Of a stretch of DNA of 53,375 bases, positions 5,044 through 9,348 are shown one piece after another. The notes below the pieces were generated by a model. It ran no database searches. It was given only the letters and a program-made list of their open reading frames with translations, and was not told where the DNA came from. How positions within the stretch are numbered: the stretch's first letter is position 1; each line of letters opens with the position of its first letter. Source of the stretch: Candidatus Nanopelagicales bacterium (GTDB lineage Bacteria; Actinomycetota; Actinomycetes; S36-B12; UBA5976). The stretch is from positions 1 through 53,375 of the forward strand of contig JAURFT010000005.1 of assembly GCA_030834185.1 (NCBI GenBank), given 5' to 3'. The translations under genes were made by a program, and so were the position numbers.

Positions 5044-6057
5044 TTACTTCCCTGCCAATATTGAGCCAACATACGTTGAAACTGCCAGCACCGCACCCAT
5101 GGTGGTTGGGTAATCCATATGCGTGGGTCCAACCACACCTAATCGAGCAACGGTATTTTCACCAATTTGATAACCACTAGTTATAACTGACGCAGCTTCT
5201 AATCCACTTGGATTTTCAATTCCAATTTTTACAGTCATATCAGGCGCAACCGCTTCGCCTATTAGTCTAAGCAGCACAACTTGCTCTTCGAGTGCTTCTA
5301 ACATCGGCCGAATAGTCGATTGATATTCATTTGCGTATCTAGCCAGATTGGCAGTGCCGCCAATTACAACTCGCTCTTCTTCTTCGCGATCTGAAAGATC
5401 AACTAAGACATCCATGATTGTGTCTGCAAAATCTCGATTTGATTCTGAGAAATGAGCTGAGATATTTTGGCGTTGTTTTTGGAAGTCTGAAAGATAAACA
5501 CCAATTAATGCAGCATTCATTTTTTGTCTCATCTCTGAAATTTCTAGATCACTAATTTCAATCGGACAATCCAAGTAGCGTTGCTCAACTCTGCCTGATT
5601 CGGTCACTAAAACTAATAAAAGTTTGCGATCTGTTACTTTCACAATCTCCACATGGCGAATCGCAGCTTTGCTTAACGAGGGATACTGCACAATGGCTGC
5701 TTGTTTAGTTAGCTGAGATAAAACTTTGGTGGTTCTATTCATAACATCATCAAGGTCAGCAGCCCCGTCGAGGAAATTCATAATTGCACGCTGCTCAGCA
5801 TTTGATAGCGGCTTAACGGTGCTTAGTTGGTCAACAAATAATCGATAACCTAATGAAGTTGGAATTCTGCCAGCGCTGGTATGCGGCTGCTCCAAATATC
5901 CCTCATGCTCTAGCGCCGCCATATCGTTTCTAATTGTGGCCGGCGAAACACCCAGATCATGCCGCTCCGAAAGCACTCGGGATCCAACTGGCTCATGCGT
6001 AGCTATGTAATTTTCAATAATTGCCCGCAGCACCTGCAGTTTGCGATCATCTGACAT
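5044..6057 (-). CDS. hrcA: Heat-inducible transcription repressor HrcA
   Basis: N-terminal winged helix VGSRVLSERHDLGVSPATIRNDMAALE; next to dnaJ. Confidence 0.96.
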   Translation of the reverse strand: MSDDRKLQVLRAIIENYIATHEPVGSRVLSERHDLGVSPATIRNDMAALEHEGYLEQPHTSAGRIPTSLGYRLFVDQLSTVKPLSNAEQRAIMNFLDGAADLDDVMNRTTKVLSQLTKQAAIVQYPSLSKAAIRHVEIVKVTDRKLLLVLVTESGRVEQRYLDCPIEISDLEISEMRQKMNAALIGVYLSDFQKQRQNISAHFSESNRDFADTIMDVLVDLSDREEEERVVIGGTANLARYANEYQSTIRPMLEALEEQVVLLRLIGEAVAPDMTVKIGIENPSGLEAASVITSGYQIGENTVARLGVVGPTHMDYPTTMGAVLAVSTYVGSILAGK

Positions 6058-6106: not shown

Positions 6107-7321
6107 TCATCGCAGAATTTCAGCCGTAACTCGGTCCGCCATCAGCCGCCCGGCAGTAGTGAGCACTAATTGCCCCTGCGCCAGCGCACTGGGCTCGATC
6201 CACCCTGCAGCCTGTAACTCAGCTAGATCTGTTGCTGCTGGCAGCAGCGAGACCGGCAGCCCCTTGCGCTGCCTGATCCCGAGCATCACCTGTTCATCAA
6301 ATTGCTGAGCAGTGCTAAGCAGCTCCTGGCCTGCTGCAGGTGAATGGCCTGCCGTTAACAACTGCGCCCAGGTCGCTGGATGCCTCTCATTCCACCACCT
6401 AAGGCCGCCAATATGACTATGCGCACCAGCGCCTGCGCCCCACCAGTTCGCGCTATCCCAATACAGCTGGTTGTGTCGGCAAGCGGCGCCAGCCACACCC
6501 CAGTTTGAAATTTCATACCAGTGAAAATTACGTTGGTTTAAAAATTCTTCTGCCTGTAAATATCTGGCAGCTGCAATGTCATCATCGGGCATTGGTATCT
6601 CACCGCGATTAACTTGGTTTGCAAATTTAGTGCCAGCTTCAACGATTAAGGCATAAGCTGAAATGTGGTTGATTGGTAAAGCAGTTGCAGTTGTTAGCGA
6701 ATCCAGCCAGTCTTGATCTAATTCTCCTGGTGTGCCATAAATTAAATCCAAACTAATATCTCGAAAACCAACTTCAGCAGCAGTTAGCACTGCAGAGCTC
6801 ACCGCGCTGGGATTATGGGTGCGATCTAATAGTTGTAACACTTTGGAAGCTGAGCTTTGCATGCCAAATGAGATTCGATTAATTCCAATATCTAAATACT
6901 GAGCTAATGAACTTTTGGTAACTGAATCTGGATTAGCTTCAATTGTAATTTCAATATCAGCTGCAAAATGATTTGATATGTTCCTAAATACTTTTTCAAA
7001 ATCAGCTGCTGGTAATAATGAAGGGGTGCCGCCGCCAATAAAAATTGTTTGAATCGTTGGAAATCCACCCAACACTTTTTTTGCAAGTTGTAGCTCAGTT
7101 GTGATTTGCGCTGACCAGTCAGATTGACTAAAGCCGCCTAGCTCGGTTGCGGTGTAGGTGTTAAAGTCGCAGTACCCGCAACGCTTTGCACAAAATGGCA
7201 CATGCAGATATAGCCCAAAGGTTTTTGAAGCTAAAGATTGCAGCGCAGTTGCCGGCAGCTCACCTGTCAAAGGCGGTTTAACTCCATCAGGTTGTTTTGG
7301 CACTCTCAGAGTAAATACCAT
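6107..7321 (-). CDS. hemW: Radical SAM protein HemW (coproporphyrinogen III oxidase-like)
   Basis: LYLHVPFCAKRCGYCDFNTYT motif, FIGGGTPSLL; ATG at 7321 preferred over the TTG at 7324 in the ORF track. Confidence 0.92.
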   Translation of the reverse strand: MVFTLRVPKQPDGVKPPLTGELPATALQSLASKTFGLYLHVPFCAKRCGYCDFNTYTATELGGFSQSDWSAQITTELQLAKKVLGGFPTIQTIFIGGGTPSLLPAADFEKVFRNISNHFAADIEITIEANPDSVTKSSLAQYLDIGINRISFGMQSSASKVLQLLDRTHNPSAVSSAVLTAAEVGFRDISLDLIYGTPGELDQDWLDSLTTATALPINHISAYALIVEAGTKFANQVNRGEIPMPDDDIAAARYLQAEEFLNQRNFHWYEISNWGVAGAACRHNQLYWDSANWWGAGAGAHSHIGGLRWWNERHPATWAQLLTAGHSPAAGQELLSTAQQFDEQVMLGIRQRKGLPVSLLPAATDLAELQAAGWIEPSALAQGQLVLTTAGRLMADRVTAEILR

Positions 7322-7436
7322 CAACTAGGTCTTGGTACTTCTGCATGACCCGGGAGCGTCGCAGTTTCAGGCTAGGAGTGAGTTCAGTTGCAGCAATAGC
7401 TAAATCATTTAGCAATACTCGGAATTGTTTGACCTG
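7287..7436 (-). pseudogene. C-terminal remnant of a long-chain acyl-CoA synthetase (AMP-binding/FadD-like)
   Basis: Open frame without start codon after an in-frame TAG: QVKQFRVLLNDLAIAATELTPSLKLRRSRVMQKYQDLVDGIYSESAKTT*; resembles the conserved FadD15-type C-terminus (..ELTPTLKLKR..V..KY..LI..lY). Confidence 0.72.
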
Positions 7437-7467
7437 CTACTTGAGATTTAGATCACCTGTGGCTTAA

Positions 7468-9348
7468 CTAATTTTTTGCAGTTTTTGCATCACCATTGCT
7501 TGTTGCTAACGCGGCGATAAAGGCCTCTTGGGGTACCTCGACTCGACCCACCATCTTCATGCGCTTCTTGCCCTCTTTTTGCTTTTCCAGCAATTTTCGC
7601 TTTCGAGTGATATCGCCGCCGTAGCATTTAGCAAGCACGTCCTTACGAATCGCACGAATTGTTTCGCGAGCAATAATGCGTGCGCCAATTGCAGCTTGAA
7701 TTGGCACTTCAAATTGTTGCCGAGGAATCAACTCTCGCAATTTGCTGGCCATCTGCACGCCGTAGGCGTAAGCCTTATCTTTATGCACAATTGCTGAGAA
7801 GGCATCAACTGGTTCACCATGTAGCAAAATATCAACTTTCACCAAATCAGCTGATTTCTCAGTTGTAAATTCATAATCCAGCGAGGCGTAACCTCGAGTT
7901 CTGGACTTTAGTGAATCAAAGAAATCAAATGCAATTTCAGCAAGTGGCAATTCGTAACGCATCTCGACACGATCTTCAGAAAGGTAATCCATTCCCAACA
8001 AATTGCCACGCCGAGATTGGCACAGCTCCATGATCGCCCCGATAAATTCAGAAGGAGAGATAACAGTTGCCCGAACCATAGGTTCAAACACCAAGCCAAC
8101 TTTGCCATTTGGATACTCGCTTGGATTTGTCACTATCAACTCGCTGCCATCGTCCATCTGAACTCGATAAATTACGTTTGGTGCAGTTGAGATTAAATCT
8201 AAATTGAACTCGCGCGATAACCGCTCACGCACAATTTCTAAGTGAAGCAAGCCCAAAAATCCGCACCGAAAACCAAATCCCAGTGCTGCTGAAGTTTCAG
8301 GTTCATAACCTAAAGCTGCATCATTTAATTTCAATCGATCCAGCGCATCGCGCAGAGCTGGGTAATCAGAACCATCCATTGGGTAAAGTCCAGAGAACAC
8401 CATTGGCTTAGGCTCTTGATAACCACCAAGTGAGTGAGTTGCAGGCTTGTTCAATAACGTAACCGTGTCGCCAACTTTTGATTGCCGGACATCTTTCACG
8501 CCAGTAATTAGATAGCCCACCTCGCCTGCAACTAATCCTTCGGCGACAGTTGGCTCTGGTGATATCACTCCTACCTCTAGCAATTCATGGGCTTCATGAG
8601 TAGACATCATTAAAATACGTTCGCGCGATTTAATTGCGCCATCAACTACTCGAACATAAGTTACAACGCCGCGATAAATGTCATAAACTGAATCGAAAAT
8701 TAACGCGCGTGCTGGCGCATCTGGATCACCTTTAGGTGCTGGTACTAATTCCACAATTGAGTGCAATAAATCTGCAACACCTTCTCCAGTTTTTGCACTT
8801 ACACGCAGCACATCAGCTGGATCACAGCCAATAATTTTTGCTATCTCTTGTGCATATTTTTCAGGCTGCGCACTTGGTAGATCAATTTTATTCAGCACTG
8901 GAATTATCTGCATGTCATTTGCTAATGCTAAATACAAATTTGCCAGCGTCTGCGCTTCGATTCCTTGCGCTGCATCTACAAGTAATACCGCACCTTCGCA
9001 GGCAGCCAATGATCTTGAAACTTCATAAGTGAAATCCACATGTCCTGGCGTATCGATCATGTTCAACACATAATCCACGCCATCGCGACCAACCCATGGC
9101 AGTCGAACTGCTTGAGATTTAATAGTGATGCCGCGTTCGCGTTCAATATCCATTCGATCCAAATACTGCTCACGCATCTGCCGCGCTTCAACAACTCCAG
9201 TTAGCTGCAGCATCCGATCGGCCAGCGTGGACTTGCCATGGTCGATATGGGCGATGATGCTGAAATTGCGCAGCACCGCCTGCTTGGTCGCCCCTGGCTT
9301 TGGATTAGTCACGGGGCGAATATTGGCATGGATTGGCTTCAGATACAC
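7468..9348 (-). CDS. lepA: Elongation factor 4 LepA
   Basis: [40 protein letters not shown]-terminal [24 protein letters not shown]. Confidence 0.98.

Follow-up and report, generated by a model that had tools for sequence, protein, structure and literature searches.

The spacer between lepA and hemW in the window, by which we mean the whole 53,375-nt stretch of Candidatus Nanopelagicales DNA analysed here (GCA_030834185.1, contig JAURFT010000005.1), is, as we hold with high confidence, the residue of a largely deleted acyl-CoA ligase gene. A FadD15/FadD11-like long-chain fatty-acid-CoA ligase gene would once have stood between its neighbours lepA and hemW. Once the window's lineage had separated from that of its sister species, two or more deletions would have removed this gene, one of about 68 nt that took the start codon, the ribosome-binding site and most of the lepA-ligase spacer, and another of about 1647 nt (549 codons) that took the ligase interior. 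Roughly 7 N-terminal and 49 C-terminal codons, together some 170 bases, would be left over (Table 1). Gene loss of this ordinary kind is unusually legible here, and it makes a clean, polarised case of gene shedding by a small genome, in which both gene ends can be read and the loss can be placed on a tree. The original prediction had proposed the tail of such a ligase at this place; both ends of the gene, the two deletions, the late timing, the repeated losses and a possible substitute go beyond it. For annotation, the consequence is that a spacer of about 150 nt that would pass as "intergenic" is a pseudogene and not a regulatory region.

On the minus strand, a frame between the two genes runs from CAG at 7436 to TGA at 7289-7287 and reads QVKQFRVLLNDLAIAATELTPSLKLRRSRVMQKYQDLVDGIYSESAKTT*; directly upstream of this 49-codon frame stand the codons TGDLNLK and then a TAG. 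The frame was thus found where it had been predicted, well beyond chance, and its resemblance to the end of FadD15-type ligases was likewise borne out: the NCBIfam FadD11 model (NF038343) matches the 49-codon peptide at E=2.8e-5 over profile positions 540-584 of 585, its very end, and in two genomes of the same genus, G002 and G001, the peptide matches the ends of open frames of about 610 aa (full lengths 612 and 629 aa) at E=4.5e-22 (88% identical) and E=3.8e-16 (65%), respectively. These intact ligases end in QVKQFRVL...SESAKTA (G002) and QIKQYRIL...YSASA (G001). Pfam alone is weak on the peptide (E=0.18), and a PDB sequence search with the 49 residues, too short for this purpose, gave no match. 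The tail contains TPSLKLRR, of which T, P, S, K, and the second R are invariant in 48 of 48 intact relatives. Judged by these matches, positions 7290-7436 are the C-terminus of a FadD15/FadD11-type long-chain acyl-CoA ligase. The frame had also been described as missing from the list of open reading frames; a 42-aa ORF from the in-frame TTG at 7415 is in fact listed on the minus strand, though as a purely mechanical call.

Compared with the FadD15/FadD11 ligases (NF038343; PF00501 plus PF23562), the remnant shares the last 45 profile positions, the motif TPSLK(L/V)RR, and the lepA/hemW neighbourhood; it differs in that some 90% of the protein is gone, the entire AMP-binding domain among it, as are a start codon and a ribosome-binding site. 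Neither PF00501 nor its YTSGTTGKPKG loop is present in the remnant, and 549 codons are missing relative to G002. It is therefore derived from a FadD15/FadD11-type ligase without itself being a member, since the AMP-binding domain is gone, and it would be dead as an enzyme, lacking both that domain and a start signal. About 56 of 610 codons are left (below 80% of the length), start codon and ribosome-binding site are gone, and an intact ortholog stands at the same locus in the close relatives G002 and G001. Pseudogene remnants are a kind already known; this instance is new.

Table 1. Features of the lepA-hemW spacer and of the neighbouring genes (positions in the window)
Feature	Position	Strand	Evidence or remark
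hrcA, next downstream gene, keeps synteny	5044..6057	(-)	81% aa identity to G002 hrcA
hemW, intact downstream neighbour	6107..7321	(-)	TIGR00539 HemW, E=4.7e-80
Overlap of ligase frame and hemW start, hemW ATG 7319-7321	7287..7321	(-)	ATGGTATTTACTC and overlap conserved in G002 and G001
Ligase C-terminal 49 codons	7290..7436, stop TGA 7287-7289	(-)	88% / 65% aa identity to full-ligase ends in G002 / G001; NCBIfam FadD11 E=2.8e-5; alignment
AAGTACCAAGAC, same in all three genus genomes, just upstream of hemW ATG	7329..7340	(-)	possible part of hemW initiation region; chance about 0.04, weak
TAG at internal-deletion seam, 1647 nt missing vs G002	7437..7439	(-)	alignments to both ends of intact gene
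N-terminal remnant of ligase, codons TGDLNLK (ancestral TGDLNAK)	7440..7461	(-)	17/22 nt identical to G001, 16/22 nt to G002 ligase start
Last of lepA-ligase spacer; 68 nt missing vs G002, including AGGAGG and ligase ATG	7462..7467	(-)	
lepA, intact upstream neighbour	7468..9348, stop 7470-7468	(-)	93% aa identity to G002 lepA

In both other genomes of the genus, a full ligase of about 610 aa lies in a lepA-ligase-hemW-hrcA arrangement, and its end overlaps the start of hemW (loci L035 and L036). The order lepA-ligase-hemW recurs in G025, G013, and G007 of a second genus and in G008 of a third, and in other families of the order the ligase again adjoins hemW. Moreover, 29 of the 80 named actinobacterial loci fetched with hemW, mostly from Streptomyces, show lepA, ligase, and hemW in this order, so the statement in the original prediction that related actinobacteria keep a ligase beside these genes was sound. 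Since this gene order is found in the genus, the family, and named actinobacteria, and the ligase adjoins hemW in other families too, the ligase is ancestral at this slot. In the window's own genome (a 1.34-Mb assembly in 142 contigs, 86.6% complete, and the sole representative of its species), the only matches to the ligase are the tail and part of a paralog with 38% identity, and no ortholog was found elsewhere in the assembly. A literature search returned nothing specific to this locus.

From the lepA stop to the hemW ATG there are 146 nt in the window versus 1861 nt in G002. Within the 31 nt that separate the lepA stop from the tail, CACAGGTGATCTAAATCTCAAG resembles the beginning of the ligase gene (ITGDLNAK), sharing 17 of 22 bases with G001 and 16 of 22 with G002; the match is short, and its scores were reached by shuffled sequences in 0.06% (G001) and 0.5% (G002) of trials. 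The differences from the sisters within TGDLN are all synonymous, and the piece lies in the right place, order, and frame. With the caution due to a short match, the remnant thus holds both ends of the ligase gene; the original prediction had put TGDLNLK in brackets, overlooking that it is the ligase N-terminus (MTITGDLNAK in relatives). Given this N-terminal match, the 1715 missing bases split into 68 nt and 1647 nt. The TAG had been taken for a GAG altered by one base, and it is indeed one base away; as it lies exactly on the deletion seam, it may equally be a product of the junction. No repeat longer than about 6 nt was found at the seam. A microhomology-mediated internal deletion was considered, TTTAAA occurring near both ends of the G002 ligase, and is less favoured, as the bases at the seam, AAG included, are better explained as N-terminal sequence.

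The removal of a gene of about 600 codons had been called recent, which is apt only relative to the genus: dS between the window and G002 is about 1.5-2 in lepA, hemW, and hrcA, so that synonymous sites are near saturation. Codons 1-38 of the tail differ from G002 by 20.5 changes at 29 synonymous sites and by 8.5 at 85 nonsynonymous sites, and the overall pN/pS of the tail is 0.14. The residues L9, N10, A15, and T17 of the window are seen in none of 48 intact ligases, and at three of these four positions the intact proteins carry only P or D, only E or D, and only G, D, or E. Mostly synonymous change combined with four never-seen residues fits a ligase that purifying selection maintained through most of the period since the split and that was relaxed or inactivated late. 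In a tree of HemW and HrcA, the window groups with G002 and G001 falls outside, so that the loss belongs to the branch leading to the window.

The slot has been emptied elsewhere as well. In G018, G021, and G027 of the second genus, lepA is followed directly by hemW, with neither a ligase nor a recognisable tail. Because these three do not form one clade relative to the ligase-bearing G007, G013, and G025 in the HemW and HrcA tree, there were apparently three losses besides that of the window, unless the gene was regained; such independent losses at one slot allow comparison. In more distant genera, a MOSC-like protein or an MFS-like transporter, identified by eye from the sequence, occupies the slot, whose content by genus (L051, L055, L067, L057, L061, L077) is an acyl-CoA ligase, an MFS-like transporter, a MOSC-like protein, or nothing.

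It might be objected that the living organism has an intact ligase and that about 1.7 kb were dropped between lepA and hemW in assembly. The assembly is fragmented, a dropped 1.7-kb piece might have gone unbinned, and the species is known from one genome; yet two separate losses within 40 nt, of 68 nt and 1647 nt, would both need to be errors, the seam offers no repeat long enough to mislead an assembler, the four residues absent from 48 intact ligases point to real relaxation, and relatives show the same slot without a ligase on unbroken contigs. We consider such an artefact very improbable.

Compared with G002, the tail shows 3 differences in its last 59 nt (95% identical) versus 27 in its first 91 (p=1.4e-4), and the G002-G001 pair has no such contrast (p=0.46). 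The three genomes share, without a single difference, the 12 bases that immediately precede the hemW ATG (p about 0.04), which might be a weak sign of a hemW initiation region. The overlap of the frame with hemW, predicted at about 35 bp, does measure 35 nt, with the hemW start better placed at ATG 7321-7319 than at TTG 7324. It had been proposed that the tail is kept through this overlap; that is plausible only for the last 60 nt or so, which would persist as the holder of the hemW start and initiation region, while the first 90 nt or so look like leftovers simply not yet removed, and three relatives lost ligase and tail alike. As for the proposed role of the tail as hemW 5' UTR, the position agrees, and a scan of the spacer found no promoter-like site, no terminator, no Rfam match, and no unusual folding (z-score 0.02).

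The same results bear on the idea that the spacer owes its retention mainly to serving hemW, as a leader with a regulatory role or as a structured RNA. Its place directly upstream of hemW and the near-identity of its last 59 nt to G002 would suit a leader, but the scan found none of the expected elements, the overlap with hemW and the ligase frame of former times account for the conservation, and ligase-less relatives have hemW spacers of about 10-110 nt without the window's spacer sequence, so that we consider this idea very improbable. Slighter still is the chance that translation of the 49 codons, for example from TTG 7415, yields a small protein with a function: the frame is open, pN/pS is low, and the motif TPSLK(L)RR is intact, but no start with a recognisable ribosome-binding site is seen in the sequence, selection that preceded the loss accounts for the low pN/pS, other residues stand in place of P9, E/D15, and G/D/E17, which 45-48 of 48 ligases conserve, and G018, G021, and G027 do without the tail. 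An isolated end of a ligase C-terminal domain is not known to have any activity.

A remnant of two deletions, untranslated as we would expect, invites comparison with decaying spacers in Buchnera, where pieces that serve a neighbouring gene, such as Shine-Dalgarno regions, stay conserved, and where most of the pseudogenes described arise from homopolymer frameshifts (PMC3164680). The window's spacer is likewise made of a gene remnant; its ligase, unlike these pseudogenes, was lost mainly by two large deletions, and its host is, as far as can be told, probably not a symbiont. Translational coupling has been described for overlapping gene pairs of the same direction (PMC10666635), and ligase and hemW in the sisters are such a pair, overlapping by tens of bases. 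Since this overlap is of the kind with described coupling, loss of the ligase may have changed hemW translation; in the window, unlike in coupled pairs (PMC10666635), the upstream partner is gone, and any putative coupling must have been replaced. hemW itself (6107-7321) diverges much faster than its neighbours, with 63% aa identity to G002 versus 93% for lepA and 81% for hrcA, and it evolves fast also between G002 and G001, the two ligase keepers. The case raises the questions of whether the presence of a second, unrelated ligase makes such a loss possible and of what becomes of hemW once the overlapping gene is gone.

A candidate for such a ligase exists. The window's genome encodes an E. 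coli-type FadD (NCBIfam FadD, E=6e-181) together with a BASS symporter on contig C66, and the loss was probably tolerable in the presence of this other acyl-CoA ligase. The FadD-BASS pair also occurs in G018 and G021 (in the latter, FadD is truncated where the contig ends), neither of which has the lepA-linked ligase, and it was not found in G001, G007, G013, and G025, all of which keep that ligase. G002 keeps the lepA-linked ligase, has no FadD match, and carries a BASS gene cut down to residues 101-323 (89% identical), close to the sua5-like gene that in the window's genome, too, stands beside the pair. Across the two genera, three genomes have FadD only, five have the lepA-linked ligase only, and none has both (p=0.018, in incomplete assemblies of related genomes). 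Because the loss coincides with the second ligase in these genera, redundancy between the two ligases would be the reason for the loss that the distribution suggests and that we prefer. G059, of another genus, carries a FadD15-like ligase plus the FadD-BASS pair; having one ligase therefore does not force the loss of the other. Going further, the non-orthologous lepA-linked FadD15-type ligase and FadD-BASS pair may be alternatives within the family, lost reciprocally and repeatedly, with the remnant in the window and the truncated BASS gene in G002 as matching scars of an ancestor that had both, a scenario we offer tentatively and with rather less than even confidence.

FadD and the BASS-family symporter form a two-gene unit (G000:C66:44572-47279, equivalent to L203:6573-9280; also in L205, L204, and L208). 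Its surroundings differ among the four genomes of the family that have it, as would suit a pair that is mobile or has been transferred repeatedly. In G002 (contig C7, L207:4402-5584), the truncated BASS gene meets a C-terminal fragment of a helicase gene in head-to-head orientation, with the palindrome CCAGCTGG at the junction, which is either a rearrangement or a misassembly.
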